Origin: Zygnema cylindricum
Taxonomy: Eukaryota > Streptophyta > Zygnematophyceae > Zygnematales > Zygnemataceae
Direction of reading: 5' to 3'
DNA length: 39,060 nt
NCBI GenBank assembly: GCA_037447655.1
Contig: JBBHKE010000933.1
Coordinates: forward strand, 1-39,060
Part shown: positions 7,172-34,632 of the stretch, in pieces
Layout of the letters: every line of letters begins with the position of its first letter
Position numbering within the stretch: position 1 is the first letter of the stretch
Notes under the pieces: model-generated
What the model saw: the letters and a program-made list of their open reading frames with translations, nothing else
Database searches by the model: none
Told to the model about the DNA's origin: nothing
Translations under genes and position numbers: made by a program

Positions 7172-8207
7172 TGTTGTCCATAGCTTATTTCAGCCATGGA
7201 TTACTCACGGAAACACCCACAGACTACCTCAAAAACAGCTCTGTTTCAGATGACACAGATTACTCCACACTAATCGAAATGGTCACAAACTCCTTCAATA
7301 TGCAGTATACCATATACACTTCAAACTCCCAAAGTTACAGCCAAATCCACCAAGGCATCTAGAAGATAAAGGCTCTAGAGTTTGCCAAAAATAGCTGACA
7401 GCTTCACAAACTAACCACTTAGACTGTTCACATAATCTTACAGAAATACTGAAATACAATGAAACTTCACACACATATAGATTCTATATCATAGAATAAC
7501 TCAACAAAGTTTCACATGAAATCACCAATCAGAATGATCACACCAACAGGTCAAAGATGCAGAAAACAGTTTGCCATTACTTTGATTAACTTGACTACGA
7601 TACATAAAGTAATCTAAGTCCTGCAAGTTATACTCAGAGTACGGAGGCATACCAGCCGTACTGTATCTACTCTAATAACCTAACTTGTCAAAAGGACAAA
7701 CCTCTATTGTACATAATATTTACACCGTACTCTTCGTATGTACTCTAACAACCTAACTAGTCAAAAGGACAAACCTTTGTTGTACATAATATTTACACCG
7801 TACTCTTTGTATGTCAAAAACTAAGCTACCACTAAGCAACCACTAAGCTACCACTATCGTTTAATCATCATTACTTGAAATCTATCCTATTCATATTATC
7901 CGTAGTTGCGCTAGCTGCGTTGGCTGCGCTTTCCGTACGGATCATAAAAATAGCCGCAACTGCGTTGACTTTAACTGCGTCGCAGCTGCTCTGTATCGGC
8001 GGCGCCTATTTCAACATTCCGTTTATTTTACATCGGATCGCTTCCCGATCCGCCGTCCATTTGTCATTGCTTGTTCACACCACTCAATGAGTCTTTTATG
8101 TAACTTTAATTATCAATCCGTTCGCTCCCCCAATCCGTGAATCTATTCAAACCTCCATATTAAATCCAATTAGCAGTTACGCACGAAACTGACTTTTCAA
8201 AACAACA
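7172..8207 (-). repeat. D 3' LTR
   Basis: Reads TGTTGTTTTGAAAAG ... ctatggacaaca on the minus strand. Near-identical to 10823-11857. The short open frame at 7875-8090 is repeated in the other LTR at 11526-11753 and is not taken as a gene. Confidence 0.92.
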
Positions 8208-10818: not shown

Positions 10819-10822
10819 AACC
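10810..10822 (-). other. D primer-binding site (half-tRNA iMet type)
   Basis: GGTTATGGGCCCA immediately after the 5' LTR end ACA on the minus strand. It is complementary to the anticodon arm and loop of eukaryotic initiator tRNA-Met, the arrangement known for Drosophila copia. Confidence 0.85.
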
Positions 10823-11857
10823 TGTTGTCCATAGCTTATTTCAGCCATGGATTACTCACGGAAACACCCACAGACTACCTCAAAAACAGCTCTGTTTCAG
10901 ATGACACAGATTACTCCACACTAATCGAAATGGTCACAAACTGCTTCAATATGCAGTATACCATATACACTTCAAACTCCCAAAGTTACAGCCAAATCCA
11001 CCAAGGCATCTAGAAGATAAAGGCTCTAGAGTTTGCCAAAAATAGCTGACAGCTTCACAAACTAACGATTTAGACTGTTCACAGAATCTTACAGAAATAC
11101 TGAAATACAATGAAACTTCACACACATATAGATTCTATATCATAGAATAACTCAACAAAGTTTCACATGAAATAACCAATCAGAGTGATCACACCAACAG
11201 GTCAAAGATGCAGAAAACAGTTTGCCATTACTTTGATTAACTTGACTACGATACATAAAATAATCTAAGTCCTGCAAGTTATACTCAGAGTACGGAGGCA
11301 TACCAGCCGTACTGTATCTACTCTAATAACCTAACTTGTCAAAAGGACAAACCTCTATTGTACATAATATTTACACCGTACTCTTCGTATGTACTCTAAC
11401 AACCTAACTAGTCAAAAGGGCAAACCTTTGTTGTACATAATATTTACACCGTACTCTTCGTATGTCAAAAACTAAGCTACCACTAAGCAACCACTAAGCT
11501 ACCACTATCGTTTAATCATCATTACTTGAAATCTATCCTATTCATATTATCCGTAGTTGCGCTAGCTGCGTTGGCTGCGCTTTCCGTACGGATCATAAAA
11601 ATAGCCGCAACTGCGTTGACTTTAACTGCGTCGCAGCTGCTCTGTACAGGCGGCGCCTATTTCAACATTCCGTTTATTTTACATCGGATCGCTTCGCGAT
11701 CCGCCGTCCATTTGTCATTGCTTGTTACACCACTCAATGAGTCTTTTACGTAACTTTAATTATCAATCCGTTCGCTCCCCCAATCCGTGAATCTATTCAA
11801 ACCTCCATATTAAATCCAATTAGCAGTTACGCACGAAACTGACTTTTCAAAACTTCA
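10823..11857 (-). repeat. D 5' LTR
   Basis: Pairs with 7172-8207. On the minus strand it starts TGAAGTTTTGAAAAG (TGTTG in the other copy) and ends GGACAACA next to the primer-binding site, which fixes the element's orientation. Confidence 0.92.
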
Positions 11858-14613: not shown

Positions 14614-15751
14614 TGTTGATACTTCAGTATTTTCTACATCTGTATTAGAATAGAAAAGAGCAGAGGCATTCTGCCTCTAACTCCCTTCTCCCAGCCCCCA
14701 CACTTGTCGTAGTCACTGAAGGCTAGATAAGGAGCTAGAGCCATGGCTGCCTAAAGCTCACTAGAGAAGAAAGGGGGTGAATTAGGTAGATTTACCAAAA
14801 GGTACTTGACGGACCCAGGAATTGATCCTGGTAACTGGCGTCTGTCAAGTCAACCGCAGCCGGTAGCTTTGACCATTAAGTCTAGAACTAGTGTTATGGT
14901 ATATTGGTTTTCATATGTATTTAAAAATGTATACATAGGTTTTTCCATTTAACTAGATTACGGTTTACAGGGTATAGAAACAGTTGTACTATTAGTAGCG
15001 GACAAAACAAATAGTACAAACATTTGTTTCGACGGTCCATATTAAATACCGATATCAATACGACCATCGTGGTTAGCGTCGGCTTTGCGAAAAAGGACAA
15101 TTTGGCAGTTTGCGGACTGCGCCACTTTGGATGACACGTGGCAACATGATACGGGTTTAAGGAATCTCCGGAACGGAAGACAACAAATTGGGATATGACA
15201 AATGTCGCATAATGGCGAAGTTGTACAGTGTCCGTACAAAAAGTACACCGGCATCTGTACTTTATTCTACGTACAGTATTGTAATTGGTCAGTACCTCAG
15301 TATTAGAGGGTTTAGAGAGGGGTTTAAGACTTAGAATATTCTGGGTAGGTAGCCGTCTCTCCTAGAGAGCATCTTGTATAAAAGGCAAACTTTGGCCAGC
15401 CATAACTATCAACTCAGTTGACCGTTTTCAGTGATTCTTGTTGTTGCGCACTCACGAGAGTCTAGGCTACAAAGGAGTGTAGTCTGTCAGAGTGTTTACC
15501 TGCCTGGGTGGCTGCATTTCTAAGGGAAATTCAAAGTGGGGAATGTTATTTAAAACTCATATTCTAACTCTGCATTCTGTGGTGGAACTAAGCACACAGA
15601 AAGTCTTATTTCAAAAGGGTGAAGGTGAAATGGGGTTCTGATTGTCAAGGGGTCAATCAACTGGTTTTATATAAACTTGGAGTCGGCACTATCTAGATTA
15701 GCTTCTTTTGATGTGCGAATTCTATGTGGCAATGGAGCCCATAGAGTTTCA
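14614..15751 (+). repeat. B 5' LTR
   Basis: From TGTTGATACTTC to AGAGTTTCA. It contains the LTR hairpin at 14662-14752 with gccATGGctgcc, the antisense T-arm with perfect 5-bp stem at 14815-14831, dyad at about 15003-15031, CACGTG at 15135-15140 and TATAAAA at 15377-15383. It pairs with 17520-18646. Confidence 0.9.
15377..15383 (+). promoter_or_regulatory. TATA box of the B 5' LTR
   Basis: TATAAAA followed by ggcaaac; the same box lies at 18279-18285 in the 3' LTR. Confidence 0.6.
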
Positions 15752-15764
15752 GGTTATGGACCCA
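15752..15764 (+). other. B primer-binding site (half-tRNA iMet type)
   Basis: GGTTATGGACCCA directly after the LTR end TTTCA. One base differs from the GGTTATGGGCCCA of element D. Confidence 0.8.
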
Positions 15765-16046
15765 CCATCTAGGATGCATATGTTCAATGGAACAGACTTC
15801 ACTTATGGGGAGTTTACGATGGAGGGGCTTCTTTTCGAGAAGCACTTCAAAGGAATTGTTTTGGGACAAGTGAGATGTCCGCCACCGAGCTTTGGAGGAA
15901 CTCACTATGAAGAATCATCTAGGGCTTTCGAGAAAACCAACCGGAGTAAGGATGCAACGGAAGGTGAAGGGAAAATCATTACCATTGAAGGGGGAAAAAG
16001 GGAGAAGGATAAAGGGACATCGATGGTGATGGGAGCTAGGCTCTAG
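15756..16046 (+). pseudogene. gag: B gag, N-terminal piece
   Basis: The ATG at 15756 lies inside the primer-binding site and opens a 96-codon frame with the Gag start P-S-R-M, then M-F-N-G and F-T-Y near residues 9-16. The frame is also open upstream to 15708 within the LTR. It ends at TAG (16044-16046). The Gag match resumes after about 70 bases in another frame at 16114, so a frameshift or small deletion broke the gene. Confidence 0.75.
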
Positions 16047-16113
16047 ACTACGGTTCTACTTATGGGGTTATAAGTGATGGAAAAACTGAAGAAAATGATA
16101 TGTTCTTAGATAT

Positions 16114-16809
16114 GTGTCTAAGTCCATAGCTATCACTCTCTTAATTGTAACCAAGTCTTCGAAAATTTGGGAAACGCTAATTCAGATTTATAAGAGTGAG
16201 ACTATACAGAGGCAGCAGTTAGTAAAACAGGAAATTATGGCCTATGTTTATAAAGGCGGTAGCATGATAGAGTTTTGCAGTGATATTGTTGCGTTTTATG
16301 TTGAGCTTGCTAGTGCAAGTTATGTAGATTCTCAGGTAAGAAAGATTAACACACTTATCATGAAACTTCCAAATGAGTACGAAGACATCATTTACCGTAT
16401 GCAGGGAATGGATGTCTCCTCATGGACTTGGAGCATTACCATGGGGATAATTCTTGTGAGGGAAAGCACATTGGAGATTCGTAGGGGAAGTGAGAGGGTG
16501 ACTGCATTTACAGCTAGTGGTGACTGGCGGAAGCGGGTTGTGAGGAACGGCGGTGACAAGTGGAAGCGTGATGAGAGGAGGAAAGACAAAGGTAAACTTT
16601 ATCGGAACCATGGTGGAAAGAAAGGGAGAAGAAAAGAAAGGGGAGTTTTGAAAAAAAACGTTTGCTTCTTTTGTAGGAAACCGAGTCATTATATGGAGGA
16701 ATGCCCTTGTTTGGAAGAACTTAGAAGTTGGAATGTGAATGAGGAAGAAAGGGAAGAGGAGAGAGAGGATGCAGTAATTTTGGAGCTTCTTCACATCGGT
16801 AGAATGTAA
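16114..16809 (+). pseudogene. gag: B gag, C-terminal piece with zinc knuckle
   Basis: Frame of 231 codons continuing Gag. It shows I-W-E-T-L near residue 19, K-L-P-N-E-Y-E-D-I near residue 74, and a CCHC knuckle C-F-F-C-R-K-P-S-H-x4-C near residues 185-198, with serine where glycine usually precedes the histidine. A very basic stretch (residues 140-180) precedes the knuckle, fitting nucleic-acid binding. An acidic stretch follows, as in F before the protease. A stop (TAA) at 16807-16809 ends it, and the next codons still resemble the Gag-Pol junction of F. Confidence 0.8.
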
Positions 16810-16881
16810 AAGAGAGAAAAGCACACAGAAATTCCACGGAGGCAACAGTTTGCTTTTGGAGGTATAAGGGAAGTAAAAAGA

Positions 16882-17433
16882 ATGGAGGTATTTGATAGAG
16901 TTAGAAATAATGAGGATAATTTTATAGATATGTTGGAAACAAAAAACCGGTCGTATAGGGAGACTTCAACGCATTCCGAGGAAAAGGGAGAAGTAAAACT
17001 AGATGGGGTTTTAAAGGATAAGGGAGAAGGGAAATATTTTATGAAAGGTTTAGGGGAGGATAAATATTTTTTGGGAATAAAAATAGAAAGTGGTAGTGGA
17101 AAGAAATTGATGGGAGAGAGAGAGGAAAGTTCAATTTTTGGGGGTAATGGGTTTGACATCACTAAAGAGAGTGATGGCATTTATGAAGGTGTGCCAGTAA
17201 AAAGGTTAGCATTTGGGTGTGTGTTGGAGATTGGGGATAGGGCTGGCTGTGTGAATTACAAGAGGGAAATTGGATTTAGTGTGGATGGAAAAGAAATGTG
17301 GATTAAATCTTGGCTTGGATTTATGAAAAGTGGGATGGTAAATAAAATGTGTGATGCAATTATAATTTCGGTTCATCTAATGCACTGTTGTAAATACGAG
17401 AGTATTTTTCTTAAGTTTATGAAAGGTAAATGA
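16882..17433 (+). CDS. B internal ORF of unknown function in place of pol
   Basis: A 183-codon frame fills most of the interval between the Gag-Pol junction remnant and the polypurine tract. The first half is rich in Glu, Lys and Gly, the second half more hydrophobic with several Cys. I recognise no domain: no D-S-G, D-D-E or YVDD motif. The DNA is strongly purine-rich on this strand, like the equivalent part of element D, so the open frame may come from low-complexity sequence with few stops. The ATG at 16882 is the first in frame. Protein status is uncertain. Confidence 0.35.
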   Translation: MEVFDRVRNNEDNFIDMLETKNRSYRETSTHSEEKGEVKLDGVLKDKGEGKYFMKGLGEDKYFLGIKIESGSGKKLMGEREESSIFGGNGFDITKESDGIYEGVPVKRLAFGCVLEIGDRAGCVNYKREIGFSVDGKEMWIKSWLGFMKSGMVNKMCDAIIISVHLMHCCKYESIFLKFMKGK

Positions 17434-17506
17434 AAAAGAAAAAGAAAAAAAAAAGGAGGGGGTATTTGTTTATTTGTTTGTGGGTGTTGAAAGGAAAATA
17501 GCATAG

Positions 17507-17519
17507 AAAATAAGGGGAG
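17507..17519 (+). other. B polypurine tract
   Basis: aaaataaggggag immediately before TGTTGATA of the 3' LTR. F has the near-identical tract aaaataagggcag. Confidence 0.85.
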
Positions 17520-18646
17520 TGTTGATATTTGAGTATTTTCTAGGTCTCTATTAGGATAGAAAAGAGCAGAGGCAGTCTGCCTCTAACTCCTTTCTCCAAG
17601 CCCCCACACTTTTTGTAGTCAGTGAAGGCTGGATAAGGAGCTAGAGCCATGGCTGCCTAAAGCGCACTAGAGAAGAGTCGGGGTGAATTAGGTAGATTTA
17701 CCAAAAGGTACTTGACGGACCCAAGAATTGATCCTGGTAATTGCCGTCTGTCAAGTCAACCGTAGTCGGTAGCTTTGTCCGTTTAGTCTACGAGTGCTAT
17801 GATATATCGGGTCTGAAATGTGTTGAAACATGTATACGTAGGTTTTTCCATTTAACTAGATTACGGTTTATAGGGCATAGAAACAATTGTACTATTAGTA
17901 CTAGACGAAATAAATAGTAAAAACATTTGTTTCGACTGTCCGTACTAAATACCGATATCAATCAGACGGTCGTGGATAGCACCCGCTTCGCGGAAAGGAC
18001 AGTTTGGCGGTTTGCGGACTCCGCCAATCCAGATGACAATTGGCAACATCATACAGGCTTACGGAATCTCCGGAACAGAAGACAACAAATCCGAATATGA
18101 CAAATGTCGCATAATGGCGACGTCGTACACTGTCCGTACAGAAAGTACACCGGCATCTGTACTTTATTGTACGTACAGTTTTGTGATTGGTCAGTACCAT
18201 AGTACTAAAGGGTTTAGAGAGGGGTTTAGGACTAAGAATATTTTGGGTAGGTAGCCGCCTCTCCCAAAGAGCATCTTGTATAAAAGGCAAACTTTGGCTA
18301 GCCAAAACCATCAACTCAGTTGACTTTTTACAGTGATTCTTGTTGCTGCCGACTTAAGGGAGTCCAAGCTGGTCTAATCGGTCAGAGTGTTTACGTGCCT
18401 AGGTGGCTACATTTCTAAGGGAAATTCAAAGTGGGAAATGTTATCCAAAACTCATATTCTAACTTTGCATTTTGTGGTGGAACTAAGCATACAGAAAGTC
18501 TTATTTCATAAGGGTTAAGGTGTAATGGGGTTTTGATTGTCAAGGGGTCAATCATTTGGGTTTGTATAAACTTGGAGTCGGCACTATCTAGATTAGCTTC
18601 TTTTGATCTGCGGATTCTGTGTGGCAATGGAGCCCATAGAGTTTCA
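17520..18646 (+). repeat. B 3' LTR
   Basis: Matches the 5' LTR throughout. It holds the hairpin at 17569-17658, antisense T-arm at about 17720-17736 and a TATA box at 18279-18285. It ends AGAGTTTCA, after which the C LTR resumes. Confidence 0.9.
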
Positions 18647-18651
18647 AACGC

Positions 18652-18890
18652 CTCTCTACCTATAAGCTTGTATATAGATTGGCATCTTCGCCACTTCAAA
18701 ACTTATGTGGTTGGGCGTTTTCATTAATTATTTTTGTTGAGGACTCAAGGGAGTCCAGACTGCACAAGGATGCAGTCAGATTGTCTGTTTGCCTGCTTCA
18801 GTAGTAGTGGTTCTAATTGAAAAGGAGGTAAGTCAAAAACTACTAAGAGGCTTTCGAATTCTATAGTCCAATGAGGGACACAAAATTGCA
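18652..18890 (+). repeat. C 5' LTR, piece 4
   Basis: Resumes with ctctctacc, then a TATA-like gcttgtatatag near 18667, and ends AAAATTGCA like L3. The primer-binding site follows. Confidence 0.85.
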
Positions 18891-18903
18891 GGTTATGGGC
18901 CGA
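18891..18903 (+). other. C primer-binding site (half-tRNA iMet type)
   Basis: GGTTATGGGCCGA directly after the LTR end, one base from GGTTATGGGCCCA. It contains the in-frame ATG at 18895. Confidence 0.8.
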
Positions 18904-19476
18904 CCCTCTAGGATGCCGATCTTTAACCGTTATGGGTTTATTTATTGGGAAGTCATGATGATAAGGGCTTTGTGTGAAAAACGATACTGGGGTATTGTTA
19001 GTGGAGAAGTAAAACGTCCATATCAGGGAACCCCACTAGGGTATGGTGGAGTGAGCTTTTCTGGAGCAGTATCTGACCCAGCAATTGAGGCAGAACACGT
19101 GCATAGTAGTGTGTCCAAAAAGGGGAAAGGGATGGAGACACCTCTTACTCATATCACCACGGTACCCAAAGCGGAGGCCGTGAAGACCGAGGAAAACGAT
19201 ATTCAAACGTGGGAATACACAAACATGGTTGCCACACACTTCATTCTGAGGCATCTTACTCAAGCTTTGACAACCTCCCATCTTCACATTTTCAAATTCG
19301 AGGAGTTGTGGGAGACCTTAGTGGAGATCTATAGATCAAATACCATTCAGGAGCTCCAGTTGGCCGAGCAAAGGTTAGGGACGTATACTTACAAAAAGGG
19401 GAAAATGCTAGACTACTCTAATGATCTCACTTGTTTGTATATCGAGATGGAGAGTGGTGGTAAACCGGTACAATAA
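18895..19476 (+). pseudogene. gag: C gag, N-terminal piece
   Basis: The ATG in the primer-binding site starts a frame (also open back to an ATG at 18871 in the last LTR bases) with R-M-P-I-F-N and F-I-Y-W near residues 7-18, the Gag start of this family. It continues through F-I-L-R-H-L-T-Q, a segment also seen in F gag, and a W-E-T-L segment, then stops with TAA at 19474-19476. Gag goes on two bases out of frame at 19479, so one frameshift separates the halves. Which of the two ATGs is used cannot be told from sequence. Confidence 0.8.
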
Positions 19477-19478
19477 AG

Positions 19479-19952
19479 ATGAAAGTCAACACCCTCATCA
19501 TAGAGTTGCCTGATGAGTTTGAGAACATAGTGTACCGAGTGGAAGAAATGGATGACAGTTCTTGGAAGTGGAATACAGTGGTCCGGATGATACTTGTGCA
19601 GGAGAACACAATTGAGATTCGGAGAGGAGGAAAGAGCGTTCAAGTTCTATCTGCTGGAACAGACCGGTGGGGAAAGAATCCAAAGAAGTTGTACAACAAC
19701 TTCAAAAGAGAAAGAGATCAATGTGGAGGAACGAGGCCCCCAAAGGGTCTTTGTCATTTTTGCAAAAAGTCGGGACACTTGATAGGGGAGTGTACCAAGC
19801 TGGCAAAGCTGAGGCTCCAAGAGAATTGTGGAGGGGGTTCTTCCGGAGGGAAGAAAAAGACACTTGTGGTGGCACAAGTGAAAAGAGGGACCGAGGAGAA
19901 CGAGTCCTCTGAAGAGGAGGACAAAGAGCTACTTCTTGATGAGAATCTATAG
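19479..19952 (+). pseudogene. gag: C gag, C-terminal piece with zinc knuckle
   Basis: A 157-codon frame holding L-P-D-E-F-E-N-I-V near residue 8, a basic region, and the CCHC knuckle C-H-F-C-K-K-S-G-H-x4-C near residues 91-104. An acidic tail (E-E-E-D-K-E-L-L-L-D) follows, matching F. In F this frame runs on into the protease; here TAG at 19950-19952 interrupts it. Confidence 0.85.
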
Positions 19953-20626
19953 GAGAAGAGATCCCTCATAAACAAAAGTGTGCCTTTGGAGCCAATCAGG
20001 AGGCCCCACAAGGAGGATGGATTATCAACTCACGTGTATCCATGCATGTGTGTCGTGATCAAAACCTCTTTACCAAGCTAAGAAAGATACCTGCGTTAGA
20101 TATTGAGTATGGGGGTGGGAATATAGTTACTAGAGATCTAGTGGGCTTGGTAGATCTAAAAGTCTTAGAGGAGGGTAAGACTTCTATACTCACCTTCTCA
20201 AATATACTCTACATTCCTGAGATGAGCAAAAATCTTGTTTTTACATCTGTGTTAGATGATAAAGAATTTGATTCTTTCACTAGAAAGGGAGTCTTTCCAG
20301 CTAAGTATGGGGAAGAAGTTTACTTCACAGCAGATAAGGGTAGCCAAGGAATGTTTAGGCTTTACCTGAGTAATGAAAAAAATAGTGTTTACTATGTTGG
20401 AGACCCAAACTTGATGATTTGGCAAAAGCGGCTGGGGCATGTGCCTTTTGATAGGCTGAGGGAAATGAAGAGGCTTAGTGTAGTAGAAGGCATTCAGTTT
20501 GGAGATAATGAAATGGTGGATGATTGTACTGGCTATGCCCAATGTAAGGCTCACAGACTCCCCTTTCCCAAAATTACCACATATAGAGGTGAGAAAGTAC
20601 TAGATCTGGTCCACACACATGTCTAG
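19953..20626 (+). pseudogene. C protease and integrase start, mutated
   Basis: After the TAG the frame shifts, and the protease active-site region reads G-W-I-I-N-S-R-V-S-M-H near 20018-20050. F has D-S-G here, so both aspartate and glycine are changed and the protease should be inactive. The frame from 20042 continues 194 codons through the GAG-pre-integrase region. Its zinc finger is also damaged: W-Q-K-R-L-G-H instead of W-H-K-R-L-G-H, and C-T-G-Y for C-x2-C. It stops at TAG (20624-20626), and matching sequence continues only to the N gap. Confidence 0.8.
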
Positions 20627-20668
20627 GGACTAACAAAGGTACCTTCGGTAGGAGGTAAGAGGATTACG

Positions 20669-20678
20669 NNNNNNNNNN
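20669..20678. other. assembly gap, 10 N
   Basis: Ten undetermined bases. Element C reaches the gap on the left and is absent on the right. The true distance is unknown, and 10 N is probably a placeholder. Confidence 0.95.
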
Positions 20679-21367
20679 CCCTGTTATCTAGCTAGTTAAC
20701 GTAAAAAAGCCACAACACCCATGAAAGATACCGGTACTAGAGTTATTATAGCTTGCCCGTTACACTGGTTATAAAGCGCACCACTAACAATCTAACAATA
20801 TTAGCTATATAAACATATGTACAAAATAATATTTGATCACGAGGTGTGGTATGTAGTAATACAGCATACTATAGTTCACGAAAATCAGCGAATTTTATCA
20901 CTAAACATTTGTAACTTGGTACTTTATTTACCATTTTTCAAAAGTCAATAAATAGTACAAAACAAAAGAGAGGTACATTCAACGGCGCTCTTTTTTCAGT
21001 CGTGTTCTTCTCTCTGTACACTTTCACATGTCTCTCTTCTTGTGCTGACTTTTTTCTCGCGGCAACTTACATGGAGAGAAAACAAAACATGATAAATAAC
21101 TGAAAACTTTTTACCATTTATTTCATGGTTCAATGTTTACAAATCACTATTTTAAGCGACTAAAAGCACTTGATATCATACGACATAATGATGTATGGTG
21201 TGGAGCACTAGTTTATAATAAAACATGTATACAAATATATCGATTATAACAATCTAACAATCACCACGCGAAATATTGGTCACATTGCCCGTTCGATATT
21301 ATTGAGATCATGGCCATAGAAAGTACCCACAACACCGAAAAAATGCAATTGATCGATCTATTGTCCC
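20679..21367. repeat. perfect 689-bp mirror repeat (same-strand reversal)
   Basis: The plus strand reads identically from 20679 rightwards and from 21367 leftwards, with no complementing. It starts ccctgttatctag and ends gatctattgtccc. The centre is T21023 in gtacactttcacatg. I compared all 344 positions of each arm and saw no mismatch. This is not an inverted repeat: the right arm is the backward, uncomplemented copy of the left. The right arm joins smoothly to 21368 onwards and the left arm abuts the N gap, so the left arm is more likely the false copy. Confidence 0.97.
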
Positions 21368-23664
21368 AGTTTAAAGCCAAAGCAAAGTTGTTCACTGACC
21401 CAATACCCCATTTATTTAAACTTCAAAGCGGTGGCTGTTACTCTATACGGCCCGCGAACAAAAGTTTTTTTTTTATGTGTTTTGCTGCAAAGGTCCCTCG
21501 GACGTCAGAAAAGTAAACGAGCGACATAACACACACACACACAAAAAAAAAAAGCAGTCAAGACAGATGTACGCCGTACGTGACACCGCACCGGCACCAC
21601 TTCCACGTCTTCGAAGACTTTATTCTGAGGGGATTTTGTAGATTTGACATGTTCCCGTTATCAACGAATATATCGGCTTACATGCCGCTACCGGCCCGAT
21701 ATGTCAAAACAGTAATCACCAAATTAACTGTAGAGAGTCAGTCGCTCATTTTAAAGAATACGTACTCCTGATGCCTATTTAACGGTTTCATTTCCTACTT
21801 TACTGTACTAGTTTAGAACAGAGTAAATTAGGTCAACTGACGACTCTCCATTCCCGTATGTGCATCCGTCCGTTCAACTATTATTGACCTAGATCCGAAA
21901 TTTTCATATGGTCCAAAATAAAGAATGCCAAGTCGCAATTAAGTCAGATACGACGTAAATTGTGGCGACGATCGCGACGTAGTCCATGCGAGTTGTACGC
22001 CACGTCCGCCGGATCCGGACCGGGCCTAGCTCCAAACGTGAACCAGCGGATCTTCCGATCGCGAGGCTAAGTACCATGTGGAAGCTCTACATATTCTGAT
22101 CGAACGGTTGTAGATAGAATGACAATCAATGGATCACAAATGTAGTTCCGGACATTTGTTTCGTCAGCACGGACGCGCTATTGCCGGCATCTAATTCAAA
22201 ACTCCACCGACCAATAGGAAAATCATCTGGACCGCCCGAGACTGACAACGAATCTTTGCCATCTTTGCCGACGTCCGATCGGACAGATATTGCTAGAGGG
22301 TCCCACTAGCCGTCGATGTCGACCTTGCTGACAGGGTGGGTCGGATCCGACGGTTGATCTAACTGTTTCTAATAGGAAATGATCTTTATTGCAAAAATGA
22401 ATCAGAGAGATATGCTCCAGAACATCGTTTTTGGAGCCATTTGAGCGCCGGACATGAAGTGCCGTGCTTTACAGGATTCTATAAAAAATTGAGAGCCTCA
22501 AAAACGGTTTCCCTGACAGAGATCCCAGACATGTCCTTTGTCTTTTTGCCGTATCCTGGAAAGTTTTTGGTCAAAAGTGAAAACAAAACCAAAAGGATAA
22601 ATTTAAGTATGACGACGTCACACTATTTTGGAATATACTTAGTGGCGTTTACAGTCGCCGAATCCGGCCATTCAAAATTTTATATTTGAGAAGCAAATTC
22701 AAATTGCATTTCACAAAATGACAAAATCTAATAGTCCGAGGGTGTCTCGGCTACCGTACACTTCAGTCACGAATGTCATAAACAAAAATGTGACAAGTCA
22801 CCGCAATGCTTCAAAAAAAATTAAAAAAAACGACGTTGAGGGATACGGTATCTTTTATGGTCATTATTACGAAAGATTTCGTTAGACATGGCCGTACAGG
22901 TAAGAAATATATAGTGTAGATTCTCTTTCTCATGATCCAGAACGTGGTGGACGAATATCCGTACAAAGCACTCCATTTCGTGTCCGCAACTCTGTCACGT
23001 CACAAATCTACACATATCCACTTTAAACAGCGTATATGACGCGAATAATCCGTACGATTACAAAAACGATAAAAGAAAATGTTGTTGGACATATCGTGTT
23101 TTTGTCGTGGAGGACGAGGACATGTCTGTAATCATGAAGAAAATCTTTGACCCTCGAATCTTTGACCCGTTTTCCATTTTGAATAAAAACAGGATCTGCG
23201 TGTCCTATCTGCTAAAATACAAATAAAAAAACAATGAAAAACAATATGTCATAAAAAATGAGCGTAAAAACAAAAAAAACTTTCCTTCAAATTTGCAGAC
23301 GGTGATTTTGAGACCTTGACAGCCCTCGGGCCAATTGGCTTGACAGAGGATAAAGTAGGTGACAGCCTTACAATTTTATAGCCGTACACTGTTAGCCGTA
23401 CTATCGTAGGGAGATTCTTGTAGCGGCGGGATTCTGTAATTATATCGGTCGCTAGGAGATGCGGGTCTAGGCACCGCCGGCCACGCTGAGCCGTCCACGT
23501 GTCTAATATTCGCCTCTTAGCAGTCTCGCAAAATGAGTTTTCGAATTCCTGAAAAAGTACACATAATTTTTCTGCAAATAAAATAAAAAAAAAGATTTTA
23601 TTGTCGAAAACCATCAAAGTACAGAACATGATTGAAGCGAAGAATTGTTGACGGTCACCAAAGG
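21368..23664. other. lower-repeat region, probably host DNA
   Basis: No LTR or TIR boundary is recognised. A short CA run lies at about 21529-21541, followed by an A run. A dyad like that of the LTRs (acaaatgt ... acatttgt) lies at about 22136-22163 without the rest of an LTR. Plus-strand frames at 21310-21516, 21580-21771 and 22441-22689 have no recognised domain; the first crosses the right edge of the mirror repeat without disturbance. One better exon candidate is listed separately. Confidence 0.5.
23315..23571 (-). CDS. candidate internal exon of an unknown host gene
   Basis: On the minus strand a T-rich tract ending ttttatttgcag gives a good 3' splice site before 23571; a second, tttttcag, would start the exon at 23548. 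The reading frame stays open through residues such as R-R-I-L-D-T-W-T and T-I-V-R-L-T-V-Y-G-Y to a donor-like AAG|GTCTC at 23318-23313. The exon would be about 234-257 bases. Residue composition looks like ordinary protein, not low complexity, but I do not recognise a family. Neighbouring exons were not found. It lies 97 bases from the outer PIF-like element. Confidence 0.3.
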
Positions 23665-23754
23665 TAAGGGCGTGTTCCCATGTAACCGAAACTTTCAAAC
23701 GTTGATTTAGATTTTATCGCAGATTTTACGGTGTACTTTTCAAAGTGTTCCTAT

Positions 23755-24707
23755 GGGTACGTCCCCATGTAAGCGATACTTTGAAAAAGTATTTTGGACT
23801 GTAGTGACGTGTTCCGTACTACTTTGAAAAGGGTCCCTATGTGCGAAAATGAAATCTAAAATTTGAAATGTGACGGCTGTAGACGTAGGTACAACTTTGT
23901 GACGGTTGACGACGACTACGAAATTGGTGACGCCAACAAAAACAGCGACAGTTGTAGAAGTCTACATTTTTGTAATTTCGTGACATGGCAGATGTTCAGG
24001 GTTTTGTAACATTGTGACGTCACGCTCACTTGTGACGTCACAGATTCAAGAACTTTCGGCCATGGATACCCGATTTCGTTTTCTCTACTTTTTTCGCTCT
24101 ACTTGCCATAAAAATATACATAAAGGTAGTCAAAATAATTATTTTTCAAATATCTTTCATTTCATACCACTTTTGTCGTGCCTCATTCTAAAAATTGCGA
24201 GATAAAAGTGACAGTGTGAGAGGGAGAGGGGAGAGGCGACGACGATGCAAAATTCTACCGAGGACCCGTGAATGAAATTGGAGGTCCGAGACCCCTGCAG
24301 ATTTTTCCGTACATCCTCGTCTTTTCGGTACATGCACGTGACGGGCAGGGAGAAAAATAGCGAGTACTCTCCCTCGTCCTAAAATTTTCCCCCTCGTGTG
24401 GCGCGTGCGTGAGTCATTTTTCATTCGTTGTTTGTGTGGTACTTTCCCTGAAATCAGGTCGCGAGGTGATTTTTGATGAAATTTTTTGACGGTCTGGATT
24501 CTCTTGCCCTGGGGTCGAAAAAAGGAAAACGCCAAAATGCGTTCACATGACGACATACATGAAGTACATTCAAAGTATTAACTTGAAGTTTGTTGTAGTT
24601 TTAAAGAATTGATTTTTTTGTACAGCTAAAGTTTTTATCGTACGGAAATGTGTTTTCGGTGAAAACAAGAGATTAAAGTTGATACTTTAATACATGGGGA
24701 CGTACCC
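23755..24707. mobile_element. inner PIF/Harbinger-like element, related copy
   Basis: 953 bp with termini GGGTACGTCCCCATGT and the reverse complement acatggggacgtaccc, flanked by TAT at 23752-23754 and 24708-24710. It is homologous to the outer element along its length and is inserted near the outer element's left end. It is rich in gtagacg and tgacgtca motifs, and no transposase is present. Confidence 0.8.
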
Positions 24708-25188
24708 TATGCCAATCATTACTTGCGCCTTCGTTACTTCAAATATATGACAGTTGTAGACGTCTACAAAATACGCAACAGCCTACGAAAGTACGAAACG
24801 AAATGTAGACGACTACGAAACTTCCTAAAACTAGTGACGTCTACAAAAACGGTGACGGTTGTAGACGTCGTGTTTTTTGTGACATTGTAGATGTTTAGGG
24901 TTTGTGACATTGCGAACTCGTGCTACCTTTCGAAGTCATGCTACCTTATGACGTCATCAACACGTAAACTTTTCGCCATGGATTCCCGATTTCTTTTTCT
25001 TACCATTTATTAGTGTTGGGTATCGAGTAAATTCATATCGGGATAATTTCGATATTCAATATATCGAATATCGATCCAGCAGAATCCTTGATATATCGTA
25101 CCGAGACCAACATAACTTATCGCGATATATATCGCAAAAAATGGGTGTATGTACATCTAAAGTACGTAAATTCGTACGGAAACCCGGT

Positions 25189-25219
25189 CCCCCCCCCCCC
25201 CCCCCCCCAGAGCGGGCCC

Positions 25220-25253
<34 letters not shown>

Positions 25254-25259
25254 GGGGGG
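25189..25259. repeat. poly-C / poly-G tract in the hAT core
   Basis: Twenty C (25189-25208), a short agagcgggccccc spacer, about 31 G (25222-25252), A, then six G. A further 18 G lie on the far side of element F at 31740-31757. It could fold back or form quadruplex structures. Homopolymer length in an assembly is unreliable. Confidence 0.85.
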
Positions 25260-26323
25260 TGAAACTTTGAGACCTCCAAAGTCCTCAGAGTGGACAACTT
25301 CCAAGAAGCCTCTAGGATAACCCTAACCCCTTTGTGTTTCAGCAAAAATAACTGCCACCTTGGCCGACAATAAATCTGACCAACTTCACCCCTGAAGGCA
25401 AGACTCCCCTGAGTCGATAGCAAAAAAAATCTCTGAATTTGCTCCGTTGAGCAGTAAGTTATAGAGGGTCAAAGTTGACCTTTTGTACAGAAGCTCTCTG
25501 GGAGAGAGGGTCCTATCTCCTAATCTTTCTAAGTCCTATCTCTCTCACAGACTCTATCTACTGATGTACGGAGCCAATCAGATTACTCCTCCATACACAA
25601 AAGTACAGCTGCCGATGTACTTTCTGTACGAACATTGTACGACATGGCCTAAATGTCGACACGTGGTATATCCGGATTCGCTCCCTTAATCCTCGAAGAT
25701 GCCGCGATCCAATGCCATTCCGCCACGTGTCATCCGATGTGGCTATTATCAAAAACCGCCAAACTTCTCTTTCGCGATGTCGGCGTTTAATTTCGGCCGT
25801 CCGATTAAATTCACATTTAATCGTAGCCGTAATGAATACATGCGTGGTATTCGTTTCGGTAAAGAAATAAATGCGCGGTATTGGTTTCTTATCCGTACCG
25901 TAATCCGTACTTTTACATTACTAGATCTATGTCTCCCGTAAAACTATTTTAGTTAAATGAACTATCCTACGTACTAATGTTTAATTAATTATCAATCCCT
26001 ATAGTACGTAACACTATCTCTAGACATAACGATTAGAACTACCGGCTACTGGCTGATTAGCGGCCGGCTGGTTTCAGGATCAAATCCTGTAGGCGGCACA
26101 TATATTTTAGTAAATATATTCTAAATTATAAATAAACTAATATTTATATCCCATAAACCTCTGGATAGCCTAGGTAGCCATGGCTCTAGCTTCCTCTCCA
26201 ACTTCTCAGTGACTGCGACAAGTTTGAGAGTTGGAGAGAGAAGTTAGAGGTAGACTGCCTTGGCTTCTTTTTATATTTCTATTTAGACCTAGAAAATACT
26301 TAAAAAGACCATTAATTTCTACA
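25260..26323 (-). repeat. F 3' LTR
   Basis: Starts TGTAGAAATTAATGG (minus) at 26323 and ends AAAGTTTCA at 25260. It contains the LTR hairpin at 26171-26263, antisense T-arm (ggatcaaatcc on the plus strand, 26077-26087) and CACGTG at 25660-25665 and 25724-25729. Plus-strand short frames inside it are repeated in the other LTR and are not genes. Confidence 0.92.
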
Positions 26324-26336
26324 CTGCCCTTATTTT
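26324..26336 (-). other. F polypurine tract
   Basis: aaaataagggcag on the minus strand just before the 3' LTR start. Confidence 0.85.
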
Positions 26337-26942
26337 CTAGTCAATCTTTAATTTCAGACCGCACTTCTCCCTACAGAAAATTAGCTTAGGGGAAGGCACA
26401 GGTTTGGTCATCATATATGCTACCATCTCACTATCTGGTCGATACTCTAAACTGATTATTTTGTTTTCTACTTTCTCTCTAACAAAGCTGAGTCTAATGT
26501 CCATGTGTTTGGCTTTAAAATGATGTTTAGGATTGGCAGAAATAGCGATTGCTGCCTGATTATCACAAAACATTTTCTGCACACCAATCTTAAGGTGACC
26601 AAGCTCACCAAGCAAAGACTTGACCCACATCAATTCTTTTACAGCAGAGCAAGAGGCCATATACTCAGTCTTCATGGTGGACTGAGCAATAACTTTTTGT
26701 TGTTTGCTACTCCAACAGCAAGACCCATCACCCACATATAATACATATCCAGAAGTGCATCTCCTCATCAGAGCATCACCATAACTAGCATCACTCGAAG
26801 TAGTGATGTCAGTATTCTCCCCACCCAAATGCAACCATAGATCCCTAGTTCCTATCAAATATCTAAGGACTCTCTTAGCTGCTTCCCAATTCCTTTTAGT
26901 GGGAGCATTTAGACTTCTACTCAGCACTCCTACAGCTGCAGC
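26337..26942 (-). pseudogene. F RNase H and Pol C-terminus
   Basis: Follows a TAA codon at about 26943-26945 that replaces an isoleucine in the conserved P-D-I segment; otherwise it continues the reverse transcriptase frame. Landmarks: S-D-A-S-Y-G-D near residue 41, Q-S-T-M-K-T-E-Y, C-D-N-Q-A-A-I, H-M-D-I-R and M-M-T-K-P. It ends next to the polypurine tract. RNase H catalytic positions appear intact, so the stop is the main defect of this part. Confidence 0.9.
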
Positions 26943-27884
26943 TTAATCCGGTTGGGTACAATTCATAAAATAGATTAGACTTCCCACTACATGCTTGTAA
27001 GGAATAGTCTGCATGAACTTCTGTTCTTCAGGAGATAACTCCTCGTCTAAGACTATGACTCCTTCTTCCTCACTCCCCTCACTTTCCTTCTTCAACTCCA
27101 TTAGAGTTGTACAGCTATTAGCTTTATCCATTTGAAATTTTTCAAGCATGTTCCCTATTGCTTCCTTTTGAGTCATTCTTATAATTTTTCTTTTTCGGTC
27201 TCTCTCTACTTGAATTCCCAAAATATATTTTGCTTCCCCCATATCCTTCATTTCAAATCTCCCCTTAAGATCGGTTTTCTGTTTATTAATTTTTTCCATC
27301 GATTTACTTAAAACAAGCAAATCATCAACATAAATTGCAATAAATATAAAACCTTCCTCGTCTTCGAGAACATAGATTGAGTGATATGAGCTGATCCGGA
27401 TATATCCCAGACCGGTAAGAAACTCATCAAGCTTCTTATTCCACTGTCGAGGCGCCTGTTTCAAACCATAAAGAGATTTAATCAGCCGGCATACCTTACT
27501 CTCCTCTCCTTCCTCCACAAACCCTTCGGGTTGTCGCATGAAGATCTCCTCTTCCGATTCTCCATGCAAAAAGGCTGTCTTGATGTCCATCTGGTGCACT
27601 TCCATGTCTTCCGCTGCTGCCAGGCTGAGAAGTATACGGACGGAGGGAAATCTGACCACCGGGGCAAAGGTTTCCTCGTAGTCCATTCCCTCCTTTTGTG
27701 TAAATCCCTTTGCCACTAGTCGGGCCTTGTAGCGCTCAATTGTGTTATCTGGGTTCAGTTTTAATTTTAAAACCCACTTACAACCGATTGGTTTTCGGTT
27801 AGGTGGACAATCCACCAGCTCCCAAGTATCGGCTACCATAATTGAGGCCATCTCCTCATTGATGGCTGTCTTCCACCGGTTTCT
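26943..27884 (-). pseudogene. F reverse transcriptase
   Basis: Open for 302 codons (27851 to 26943). In order: W-E-L-V-D-C-P-P, G-C-K-W-V-L, E-R-Y-K-A-R-L-V-A-K-G-F, H-Q-M-D-I-K-T-A-F, S-L-Y-G-L-K-Q-A-P-R-Q-W, the catalytic Y-V-D-D near residue 178, and E-M-K-D-M-G-E-A. It is the best-preserved enzyme domain in the window. It is separated from the integrase frame by a stop and frame change near 27885 and from RNase H by one TAA. It makes element cDNA from RNA in the cytoplasmic particle if intact. Confidence 0.92.
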
Positions 27885-28940
27885 TTATGGACAAGTCATA
27901 GCCTCTCCATAAGTTTGAGGTTCATCTTGATGAGATAGTTTAGTTACCTTGTTATTAACCTGTTTTTCTTGCAGTCTTTTGCTACTTCTCCTCCCCCCCT
28001 CAAAATCTGAGGCCGAAATAGATGGTTCTCGTGGATTCTTTCGAACAAACTCGGCATCTCCCCTATCCCTTGATTCCGAATCAATTTCCACCACGTCTTC
28101 CGCTTCGGGTAGAGTTGTCACTGGAGTTTCCACAGCCGAGTCCATTTCGGTCTGATTTGTTCCTGCAAGAATATCATCTTCTCTAAAACCTGGATAGTTA
28201 GGAAGCTCAAAGTCATCGGAATTTTCTGACTCAAATCTGATTTTTACTAACTTTGTATATTTGAAGGGATCCACAGACTTTCCTTCATCCATAACTACTA
28301 GATGCTTTACTAGGATTATATCTTCCCTTTTTAGATCATAAACTCTATATCCTTTAACATCCTCATCATATCCTAATAAGTATCCCGGTTTTCCTTTAGG
28401 ATCTAGCTTCCAATTGGACCGATCAGTATCTAGACTGAATACTTGACTGCCGAAAACCTTTAAGTGAGATATGTATGGTTTTCGGCCTGTCCATCTCTCA
28501 TAAGATGTTTGATCTTTTATAGCTGAAGTAAGAACTCTATTTTTGAGGTAATTAGCACAGTTCACTGCTTCTGCCCAAAACCTTTTTCCTATCTTTTTAT
28601 CTGACAACATACTTCTAGCACTATCACTTAGTGTTCTATTTAACCTTTCAGCTACCCCATTCTGTTCCTAATTTTCTGGAACTGTCTTTTGGTGTTGGAC
28701 CCCATCTTCCCTCAAAAAATCCTCAAAATGGTTAGAAGTATACTCTCCACCATTGTCACTCCTTATTCTCTTGATTGGAGTTTCATGGAGTTTTTCGCTC
28801 CATGCTTTATATTGTCTTAAACAATCCCGAGCTTCGGACTTGTTTTTCAAAAAATACACTCGTGAATACCGAGACCAATCATCAGTGATAGTCATCATAA
28901 ATCTCTTCCCCCCCGGTGAGGGCACTTTAGCCGTCCCCAA
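27885..28940 (-). pseudogene. F integrase core and C-terminal domain
   Basis: Two pieces. The first (28940-28668) has T-D-D-W-S-R-Y and I-R-S-D-N-G-G-E-Y, two of the three catalytic acids, and ends at a TAG. The second resumes at once with the N-G-V-A-E-R-L-N-R-T-L segment holding the catalytic glutamate, then a 241-codon frame (28610-27885) with F-W-A-E-A-V, the copia C-terminal block Y-E-R-W-T-G-R-K-P and K-G-Y-R-V-Y-D. The acid spacing fits a copia DDE integrase. One stop and one frame change from the protease frame (near 28900-28940) break it. Confidence 0.88.
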
Positions 28941-29947
28941 ATATCTGTGTGTACTATATCTATAATTTTTTCTCCCTTAAAGGTGGTTGTTTTAGGAAAG
29001 GGTAATCTGTGTGTTTTACCTTGAGCACATCCACTACAATCACTTATATTATCATTCTCACTGAACTCAATCCCTTCCACCACTCCCATCCTTTTCATCT
29101 CTCTTAACTTGTCTAGATTCATATGCCCAAGCCTCTTATGCCACATCATAATATCATGAACACCAGCATAATAAAGTTTCTTCTTTTCATTACTTAAAAC
29201 CAGCCTAAACATCCCATGGCTACCTTTCTCAACAATGAAATAGACATCCTCCTCAAAACTAGCAGTAAAGACTCCTTCCCTAGTGCTAGTAAAAAAACCC
29301 TTATCATCTAATACGGATGTAGAGATGAGGTTTTTGTTCAGCTCCGGAATAAACAATACATCAGAGAATGTTACTATGGATGTCTTTCCTTCTACTAACA
29401 CTTTCAAATCTACCGATCCTACAAGAGTAGTGGTGACTATCCTCCCATCCCCGTACTCTATCTCTACGGTGGGAATATTTCTTATCTTAGTGAACAGGTG
29501 CCTATCCTTACACATGTGCATGGAGGCACCTGAATCTACAATCCAACCTGCTTCACCTTTCAATCCACCGTAAGCACATTTCTGCCTTCGTGGAATTTCG
29601 ACCTCGTTTTTCGCCTCCAACTCCTCATCTAAAAGGAGCTCAACGTCCTCGTCCTCGGATTCCGCCTGATGTACTTGTGTCACAAGGGCCTTTTTCTTTC
29701 CTCTCGGGGTACCACCGGTTTGCCCCTTCTTTAATCGAAACTCGGTTAACTTAGTGCACTCTGCCATATAGTGCCCAGGTTTCTTACAAAAATGACAAAC
29801 CTTTGGGAGCCATTGGTCCGAACTCGTCGGTCTGATTTTTCTGCTCCCTCCCCCCATAGTTTTCGACCGGTTTCCGGGAATCCTTGTTCCTCCAATCGGT
29901 CGGAGTTGCCAAGGCTTGGCCACTCTTTCCTCCCCTTCGGATCTCAA
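28895..29947 (-). pseudogene. F Gag C-terminus, protease and integrase zinc finger
   Basis: A 350-codon frame. The zinc knuckle C-H-F-C-K-K-P-G-H-x4-C lies near residues 51-64, followed by an acidic linker, the protease active site W-I-V-D-S-G-A-S-M-H near residue 134, and G-S-V-D-L-K-V. The pre-integrase block follows: W-H-K-R-L-G-H near residue 272 and C-S-G-C near residue 309, the integrase H-H-C-C finger. It shows that Gag and Pol were one reading frame in the ancestor. It ends by frameshift after the D-I-V-H-T-D-I-W-G segment. Confidence 0.9.
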
Positions 29948-30668
29948 TCGTATTCTCCCGAACGAGAATCATCCCTACCACTGAGTTCCATATCCACCTT
30001 GAGTCCGGCAAGTCCTGCACACGGTTGACTATGTTCTCGAACTCATCGGGTAACTTCATCAGTAAACAATTAACCTTTTCTTTTTCACTAAAATCTTTTC
30101 CCGCACTCTCTAGCTCCATGAAGAGTGTAGCAAGCTCATTGCAAAAAATCCAACATCTTCCCCCCTTTGAATATATACTTCTTAACTTTTTGATCAGCCA
30201 ACTGTTGTTGCTGAATCGTACCACTTCGGTACATCTTTAGGAGAGCCATCCATAGATCGGATGCCCTTTCTCCTGCAAATGAGGACATGCAAGTCCTTGA
30301 GTGAGATGGCGTAGGATGAAGTGTTTTGCCGCCATATTGTTGAAGTCCCAGGTTTCAGTATCATTCTCCTCGTTCCTCGGAATAGGTGACATGAATGCCG
30401 AACCACTTGCTATTGGTGTGGTCGCCTCCTTCTCCTTTCCTTTGTCCACCACCTCTCATTCTTTTGTTTCCTCCGTTGAAGGTGGATCCTCTTTCCTGGT
30501 GAATCTGCTTCCTTCAAACCCTAGAGGAATTCCAAGACTTGATGGACGCCCCAACCGTCGACTCACTATCCCCCAAAACCATTTTTCGCATAGAGCTCAT
30601 ATCATCATACTTTCCCAGTATATGAAGCCGGTTCCATTAATGATTGGTACCCTAGAGGGTGGGCCTAT
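29784..30668 (-). pseudogene. gag: F gag, N-terminal two thirds, broken
   Basis: The primer-site ATG is mutated to ATA, so the usual start is lost. The frame still reads P-I-I-N-G, then F-I-Y-W, followed by a TGA soon after. Later pieces lie at 30452-30237 (F-I-L-R-H-L-T-Q segment) and 30224-29784 (L-P-D-E-F-E-N-I-V near residue 55), in different frames. At least three lesions are present before the zinc knuckle. C gag on the plus strand aligns along the whole region. Confidence 0.82.
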
Positions 30669-30672
30669 AACC
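30660..30672 (-). other. F primer-binding site (half-tRNA iMet type)
   Basis: GGTTATAGGCCCA on the minus strand, after the LTR end CTTCA. One change from GGTTATGGGCCCA turns the ATG to ATA. Confidence 0.8.
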
Positions 30673-31739
30673 TGAAGCTCTGAGACCTCCATAAGTCCTC
30701 AGAGTGGATAGCTTCCAAGAAGCCTCTAGGATAACCCTGACCCCTTTGTGTTTCAGCAAAAATACCTGCCACCCTGGCCAACAATAACTCTGACCAGCTT
30801 CACCCCTGTGAAGGCAAGACTCCCCTGAGTCGATAGCAAAAAGAATCTCTAAATTTGCTCCCTTGAGCAGTAAGTTATGGAGGGTCAAAGTTGACCTTTT
30901 GTACAGAAGCTCTCTGGGAGAGAGGGTCCTATCTCCTAATCTTTCTAAGTCCTATCTCTCTCACAGACTCTATCTACTGATGTACGGAGCCAATCAGATT
31001 ACTCCTCCGTACACAAAAGTACAACTGCCGATGTACTTTCTGTACGAACATTGTACGACATGGCCTAAATGTCGACACGTGGTATATCCGGATTCGCTCC
31101 CTTAATCCTCGGAGATGCCGCGATCCAATGCCATTCCGCCACGTGTCATCCGATGTGGCTATTATCAAAAACCGCCGAACTTCTCTTCCGCGATGTCGGC
31201 GTTTAATTTCGGCCGTCCGATTAAATTCACATTTAATCGTAGCCGTAATAAATACATGCGTGGTATTCGTTTCGGTAAAGAAATAAATGCGCGGTATTGG
31301 TTTCTTATCCGTACCGTAATCCGTACTTTTACATTACTAGATCTATGTCTCCCGTAAAACTATTTCAGTTAAATGAAATATCCTACGTATTAATGTTTAA
31401 TTAATTATCAATCCCTATAGTACGTAACACTATCTCTAGACATAACGGTTAAAACTACCAGCTACTGGCTGATTAGCGGCCGGCTGGTTTCAGGATCAAA
31501 TCCTGTAGGCGGCACATATATTTTAGTAAATATATTCTAAATTATAAATAAACTAATATTTATATCCCGTAAACCTCTGGATAGCCTAGGTAGCCATGGC
31601 TCTAGCTTCCTCTCCAATTTCTCAGTGACTGCGACAAGTTTGAGAGTTGGAGAGAGAAGTTAGAGGTAGACTGCCTCGGCTTCTTTCTATATTTCTATTC
31701 AGACCTAGAAAATACTTAAAAAGACCATTAATTTCTACA
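30673..31739 (-). repeat. F 5' LTR
   Basis: Pairs with 25260-26323. It holds the hairpin at 31587-31679, antisense T-arm at 31493-31503 (plus), and CACGTG at 31076-31081 and 31140-31145. It ends next to the primer-binding site and starts against a run of 18 G. Confidence 0.92.
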
Positions 31740-32571
31740 GGGGGGGGGGGGGGGGTTGAAAATAAATCGGAAATTAAAATCGCATAAATATCTGGATATT
31801 TAGCTTCTAGGTACATGGATTCGATATATCGATTATCAGATGCCTAAAATTCGATATATATCGAATATCGACAATAGGTCTTCGATACCCAACACTACCA
31901 TTTATCATTCGAATGCCATCAAAATGAGACAAAAAATATGAAAAAAAAAGGAAAAAAATACATCTTTCATTTTATACTATTATTGCTGCATTTCATTTAG
32001 AGATGAGAGAAAGAGGAGCGGTCGAATGAAAAGGATAAGGAGAGACGAGGACGTTGTAAATTTTTGCAAAGGACCCATGAATGAAAGTGGAGGTCCGAGA
32101 CCCCAACGATTTTTTTTCCGTACATGCTTGTCATTTTTGTACGTACATGCGCGTGACGAGCATGGAAAAAAATAGCGTGTACTCTCCCTCGTTCAAAAAT
32201 TTCGAAGACGTTTCACGCGTGCAATTCATGCTTTCTATTCGTCGATAGGGTGTTATTTTGGTTAAAATCAGATGGTGATTTGGATCCATTACAAGTGTGA
32301 AGATGAGCTGGAAGTGGGTGGCGATGATAATAACGCCAAATTGTCGTACCTTCCAAGTTTCAAGATGACGCAAAATGTACTTGTGTTTTTGCCCAATTTT
32401 CTTACGGCGTAATGTTTTCTCGTTAGGAGTCCCATTTTATGTGAAAACGACGGAAAAAAACCCTTATTTTAACACATGGGAACACGCCCTAAGAGATGGA
32501 AATTCCCTAAGGACTAAAAACACTATAAACCCTAAGCAACACTAAAACATGAACTCGAAAGCACAAAAAAC

Positions 32572-33132
32572 CATAGTTTAAAAGTAGGTGAAAGTAGGCC
32601 TATACAATATGTCTATTGTACGCAAAACATACAATATGACCTTAAGACCCATATTGTATTCGTACTTATTCGGACCAATTAAAATATTCAGACCAAAAAA
32701 AATTATTTACACCGTCAGATTCGGACTATCGGACGGTCGTTGATCAAAGTAGCGATCTAAGAAGATCACATGAAAAGCCCATATCACAACTTACGATAAA
32801 GGCGCCCACCAAAGGCCTACCATAGAAACCATATTTCAAAAGTAGGTGAAAGTAGGCCCCATACAATATGCCTATTGTATGCAAAACATACAATATGACC
32901 TTAAGACCCATATTGTATTCGGACCTATTCGGACCAATTAAAACATTTGGACCAAAATATTATATTCACACCATCAGATTCGAACGATCGGACGGTCGCT
33001 GATCAAAGTAGCGATCTAAGAAGATCACATGAAAAACCCATAACACAACCTACGATAAAGGCGCCGACCAAAGGCCTACCATAAAAACGCCTACTTTTGA
33101 ACTATGATAAAAACACCTACTTTTGAACTATG
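32572..33132. mobile_element. TIR element with internal tandem duplication
   Basis: Ends CATAGTTTAAAAGTAGGTG (32572) and cacctacttttgaactatg (to 33132) are inverted repeats with one mismatch. Both flanks are CAAAAAAC (32564-32571, 33133-33140). Inside are two direct copies, period about 258, and a second copy of the right end at about 33091-33109. The 8-bp target suggests a hAT-like mechanism. No transposase is present. Confidence 0.8.
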
Positions 33133-33140
33133 CAAAAAAC

Positions 33141-33621
33141 CATAGTTGTTAAAGTCGCACGATTTTTTCCTTTTTTCCGACTAAAACGTATAATTTGTGA
33201 CTTTTGAATAAATCGGAAAAAACGCGATGTACTCTTTGTATGGAAAATTGAACGGCTAATTTACGTAAACTGTACGGCATTTTACGATTGTTGTACGGTT
33301 TTGTACGATAAATGTACGGAATTTGGCAAAAAGATACATTGCACTTCGTCGTACTTTCTGTCCGGTAAACTGAACATAAATTTTACGGAAATGTACGGAC
33401 TTTTTCCAAAAATGTGAGGACTAAATTGAAAAGATACATAAAATGTACGAAAAATGTACAAACTGCAGTATATGTGAAATTTATTTTTGTTTGCATGTAC
33501 GGAATAGTACGGATGCAAATTCATTAACGATTTTTACGATTTTTTAAAAAGGTTCAATGCGTTTGTTACGTATAATTCGCCGCGATTAAATCGTTCGCAC
33601 TAAACGTCGTGAACAACTATG
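33141..33621. mobile_element. second CATAGTT-type TIR element, sharing the target copy
   Basis: 481 bp from CATAGTTGTTAAAGTCG to cgtgaacaactatg, flanked by CAAAAAAC at 33133-33140 and 33622-33629. The left target copy is the right target copy of the previous element. The interior is rich in gtacgg words and has no coding frame. Confidence 0.72.
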
Positions 33622-33657
33622 CAAAAAACACATAGAAAAGCAAATACACAACAATAA

Positions 33658-34629
33658 AGGTGGCGTTCGATCAGACGAAAAGTGGGGTACTGTAGTTTAA
33701 AGAAATCGGCGCCTACCCGTACTAAGCCGTAGCGCTTATTTTGTTTTTATGTGCGAACAACATTACAGAGAATCTTGCCAATATTCTTCAAAGTTCTGGG
33801 AGGTAACAATGAGCGTTGGATTTATTTTTGCGAAGCATTCGCTTCGAAAGTTTCAGGAAATGGTTATGTACCTTGTCGAGTTACATCACCATTTACATAA
33901 AAATTTGAGCCGCGACACGCTAGATAATGAACATACGTGTCAAGACGGCGACCAACGGAAATCGCACATGATACATCCATTCAAAAATCTTAAACGACAT
34001 CACAAAAGTAATCTCGTAAGTCGTTCCATCAAGAAATCTTGTAATCGTACGACCAACATTACAGGATGCTACATTTTGAACGATGTTCTATCGTGCAGAG
34101 TCTGTAATCCACGTGCCCAAAAATGAGTGGTACCACGTATGATAAGATCGTGTATTGAAAATCGTCAAATATTTTTCTCACCGACCAACTTCAACTTTAA
34201 ATCTTCATATGCGTACCATGCACGTGTGGACTAGGTCATCGTACGAAATAATTGTTGTACTCTTTGCAGACGCCTTGTCAGAAACCAACTCAACTTTTTT
34301 TTAGGGTTTTTTACTTTTTTACTCTGTTTGTTCGCGTGACTTTTTTTTAGGGTTTCTTACTTTTTTACTCTATTTGTTCGCGTGACGTTGTTTGAGCGTT
34401 TTTCTGTAAAAGGTGATGTACCTGGTCGAGGTACATCACCACTTACAAAAACTTTCGAAGCGAAATGCTTCGCGAAAAAAAATCCAACGGCCATTGTTAC
34501 CTCCCGGAACTTTGGAGAATACATGCAAGATTCTCTGTAATGTTCTTCGCGCATAAAAACAACATAAGTTGTACGGCTTGGTACAATTTGTGTAAACTAC
34601 CTCACTTTTCGTCAAATGGAACGCCACCC
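33658..34629. mobile_element. foldback-like element with long TIRs, TSD TAA
   Basis: 972 bp. The left about 240 bases (from aggtggcgttcg) are the approximate reverse complement of the right end (to aacgccaccc), including a tgggaggtaacaatg block and a gtacatcacc block. TAA flanks both ends (33655-33657, 34630-34632). The TSD and GGG-like end fit PIF/Harbinger; the long TIR is less usual. A 125-codon frame at 33749-34126 begins in the TIR and has no recognised domain. Two copies of an actctrtttgttcgcgtgac block lie at about 34319-34385. Confidence 0.75.
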
Positions 34630-34632
34630 TAA

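Follow-up and report, generated by a model that had tools for sequence, protein, structure and literature searches.

How does a single strand of DNA come to read the same from left to right as from right to left over 689 bases? The plus strand of the window analysed here, which is the entire scaffold G000:C700 of Zygnema cylindricum at 39,060 bases, does so between 20679 and 21367. Two arms of 344 bases each are exact reverses of one another around a single centre base, T21023, with no mismatch at any position, as the original prediction had described. The symmetry is broken on the right by A21368 and on the left by an assembly gap; it starts at 20679, directly after the N run at 20669-20678, a placement that had also been claimed and that is borne out exactly. 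The sequence argues that this mirror is an assembly artefact, absent from the organism's DNA, a reading to which a probability of about 97% can be attached. Homology, orientation statistics and a cut-off element across the gap agree that it is the left arm which is spurious. The parts of the region are collected in Table 1.

Table 1. Coordinates of the mirror, the adjoining gap and their flanks in the 39,060-base window
Feature	Position	Strand	Basis or remark
Left flank, Ty1/copia-like element interior stopping at the gap	18654-20666	+	79% alignment to the C1960 (L022) copy
Assembly gap, ten N	20669-20678		Sole N run in the scaffold
Left arm, probably an artefactual reversed, uncomplemented copy of 21024-21367	20679-21022		Exact reverse; matches only itself; scores as backwards DNA
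Mirror centre T21023 and right arm, probably the genuine end of the right-hand contig	21023-21367	+	87% homologue at G000:C1468:251210-251584; alignment starts at 21023
Right flank with paralogous or homeologous copy on C1468	21023-23666	+	blastn, 86.6% over 2704 columns

Size and composition of the mirror

The mirror contains 242 A, 213 T, 134 C and 100 G. Purines make up 49.6% of its sequence, the longest purine and pyrimidine runs are 10 and 11 bases long, and 21023-21367 holds 319 distinct 6-mers out of 340, so the mixed composition attributed to it at the outset holds. The sequence is neither low-complexity nor homopurine, and a tandem-repeat search found no tandem array within it. One hundred first-order Markov simulations of the window produced longest mirrors of 17.2 bases on average and 21 at most, ruling out a chance origin for one of 689. 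The second-longest mirror in the window itself measures 31 bases and is a G run at 25222-25252.

A hidden ordinary inverted repeat was rejected as well. The arms are exact reverses, and none of the 25 longest of the 37 inverted pairs in 15000-27000 joins them as a reverse-complement pair. Searches of the window with finders of direct, tandem and reverse-complement repeats gave no report of the mirror. Foldback or inverted duplications, chimeric foldback reads included, place a reverse-complement second copy of a contig end beside a break. The structure seen here resembles them in having a second copy of the contig end that runs in the opposite direction beside a break, but it differs from them in that this copy is reversed and uncomplemented.

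Natural mirror repeats of the H-DNA kind can be long. A study of the human T2T genome (PMC11879447) selected H-DNA motifs for at least 90% AG or CT; the longest mirror repeat there is one of these motifs, its 797-bp arms separated by a 1-bp spacer. The original prediction held that natural mirrors are short or homopurine; the human arms show that they can be long, but the human repeat is AG/CT-rich (PMC11879447). The mirror in the window shares with these repeats a same-strand symmetry and a 1-base centre. It departs from their AG/CT richness in its mixed composition, with a purine content far below 90% AG or CT on one strand, and it adjoins a gap. Composition already refutes a natural mirror of the H-DNA type. 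Extended to microsatellite-like repeats, this explanation also conflicts with the short purine runs, the variety of 6-mers and the lack of a detected tandem array described above, and it is the least probable of those weighed here.

Elsewhere in the genome, mirrors of 28 to 133 bases occur in 14 of 24 sampled 10-kb stretches, and all of them are low-complexity. No other mirror of mixed composition was found in these 24 stretches, and a filter of more than 8 distinct 3-mers returned no mixed-composition mirror of at least 24 bases in any of 28 stretches.

Homology on the two sides of the gap

Both arms were searched against the genome (352.8 Mb in 2689 contigs). The right arm together with the centre base gives three matches, namely itself and two others: the homologue on C1468, which shows 87% identity and small insertions, and a partial relative on C787, 78% identical over 84 query bases. 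The original prediction had proposed searching the genome with the reversed, uncomplemented form of the right arm. This form, which is the left arm, found only itself, in a search that scores best candidates only and skips very common words, so that a single match is no proof of uniqueness. When 28 loci were compared (261 kb, the window's own locus left out), the right arm matched four at E 0.01, all of them overlapping pieces of the C1468 and C787 places, and the left arm matched none at the same threshold.

The homology with C1468 that begins in the right arm ends exactly on the centre base of the mirror, a stop that is based on this one paralogous locus. In the other direction it returns at 32490-32571 and 33622-34220, past inserted DNA. 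Beyond the equivalent of the centre base the C1468 locus carries other sequence, and none of the matches listed at E 1e-6 connects the window to that part of the locus (L004 5586-9901). A more sensitive comparison that included 600 bases past the centre in both sequences added to the main alignment only a pair of weak matches, one of 15 bases and one of 19, at non-corresponding places.

These comparisons bear on the possibility that the duplication is real, meaning that 344 bp were copied from the neighbouring DNA in the same chemical direction, uncomplemented, by an unknown process. Such an event would account for a perfect mirror far beyond chance. To our knowledge, however, no polymerase, enzyme or recombination route copies a strand without complementing it. 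The left arm, moreover, ends exactly at the gap, was matched in the genome search by nothing but itself and faces an unrelated, cut-off element across the gap. The arms differ from each other at 0 positions, although the right arm diverges by 13% from its C1468 relative. Together these points make a real mirror duplication extremely improbable, and the reading of the left arm as an assembly artefact is strongly preferred.

The left side of the gap tells where the genuine sequence probably breaks off. The alignment of the copia-like interior to the element copy on C1960 (L022) ends two bases short of the N run, and at E 1e-10 nothing in 20667-23909 matches the C1960 copy. Five of the 28 compared loci have matches, at 68-85%, to the last 345 bases ahead of the gap. 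The Pfam domain Pol_BBD is found within 19943-20623, with gag_pre-integrs barely below the cut-off (28.1 versus 28.4 bits). Copia elements usually carry the reverse transcriptase and the 3' LTR after these domains, so the element should continue past the gap. The gap appears instead to join the interior of a retroelement and a locus unrelated to it, with genuine sequence apparently stopping at about 20668 and restarting at 21023.

The window contains several Ty1/copia-type ORFs, and no RNA families or tRNA genes were found in it. One copia-type LTR element occupies 25260-31739, with its ORFs on the minus strand and LTRs at 25260-26323 and 30673-31739 that are 97% identical. G-rich runs flank this element (25222-25259 and 31740-31755), as if it had been inserted into a G tract, and a target duplication would be hidden in these borders. 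Just to its left, at 25189-25252, 20 C are followed by a 13-base spacer and 31 G, an arrangement that may be genuine or may reflect an error in the consensus. Two direct repeats, each roughly 1 kb long (7171-8203 and 10822-11853), share 98.6% identity and lie 3.65 kb apart; each carries the same 73-bp tandem array, and they are perhaps the LTRs of another element.

Orientation statistics

Reversing DNA without complementing it changes its word frequencies. Orientation was scored as the forward minus the reversed value under a strand-symmetric 5-mer model trained on twenty 10-kb stretches of this genome, any stretch being excluded from training when it was itself scored. When 560 genome pieces of 345 bases were scored, 81% were positive, as were 95% of 80 pieces of 2 kb. 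The right arm with the centre base scores +6.83, so that the left arm with the centre base scores −6.83. Among the 345-base pieces, 142 of the 560 score +6.83 or more, while only 6 score −6.83 or less. With 4-mers the score of the right arm is weak, at +1.93, under the genome-piece mean of 2.92.

The remainder of the window gives no sign of a larger reversed block, as 19 of its 20 segments of about 2 kb (two of which overlap) read forwards; the left arm alone is suspect. The sole negative segment, 1-2000 at −2.8, is distant from the gap. A larger reversed block beside the gap was rejected on two grounds: the segments on both sides score forwards, and ORFs to the left and right of the gap encode copia domains in native direction. 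Seven of the nine ORFs tested matched a Pfam domain at E ≤ 0.001, and stop-free stretches of at least 120 codons number 31 in the native window versus 5 in the reversed one. CpG is over-represented in 21368-26000 (odds ratio 1.28) and in 31000-35000 (1.49), and 1-20668 is CpG-poor (0.66). The high ratio in 21368-26000 was considered as a sign of a reversed block, but the orientation score speaks against this.

Origin of the reversed string and its meaning

The evidence is consistent with a model in which two unrelated contig ends were set side by side, the copia interior reaching to about 20668 and the other locus beginning at 21023. A later gap-opening, gap-filling or polishing step would then have written an extension of the right-hand end. 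This extension would consist of the first bases of the right-hand contig, reversed and uncomplemented, with the edge base T21023 common to both arms, and the ten N would stand ahead of the fabricated 344-base string. Gap opening, gap filling or polishing is the most likely source of the 344 bases, a software step that we infer from the form of the junction. The original prediction, which had suspected that software or gap filling reversed a contig end without complementing it, draws support from the homology, the orientation score and the truncated copia element alike. N runs are found in none of the 24 sampled 10-kb stretches (240 kb, <0.1% of the genome).

An origin at the level of the reads is the other explanation that places the error at a contig end. 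A strand can be ratcheted both ways through a nanopore, and one that slid backwards, was base-called in reversed order and lent its tail to the contig end would yield a reversal of order without complementing at just such a place. The arm, however, has not one wrong letter in its 344 positions. Reversed motion should cause errors in a base-caller that was trained on forward signal, and polishing would presumably be unable to correct sequence matched by no other read. A nanopore back-slide is accordingly judged very unlikely, and a string reversed by assembly software is the favoured origin.

Such an origin would suit a tool that reassembles locally, lengthens the flanks and leaves a small gap between them, any particular tool being named by inference. 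The default smallest gap of Pilon is 10 N. A default gap size for Pilon was not found in the available portions of PMC4237348, PMC5765664, PMC7202002, PMC5897528, PMC7238635, PMC9796300 and PMC13185349. Pilon resembles the proposed step in that flanks are given consensus extensions and a gap is left or created where there is no unique closure, and it also partly fills pre-existing gaps (PMC4237348). A correct extension of the Pilon type, in contrast, would be new sequence in its true orientation, whereas the right-hand extension here is the flank itself, reversed. Speaking further against Pilon in particular, the available text of its description states that new gaps are opened only with an optional argument and that default settings add no N (PMC4237348). 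Among the titles and abstract openings listed by a literature search, with most subscription papers outside its reach, none mentions reversed, uncomplemented assembly errors.

As biology the mirror would be of no importance, but it may matter for quality control. No natural process is known that produces its signature, a long mirror of mixed composition on one strand. Looking for such mirrors at contig ends and N runs, with a low-complexity filter, could therefore expose string-reversal errors in deposited assemblies.
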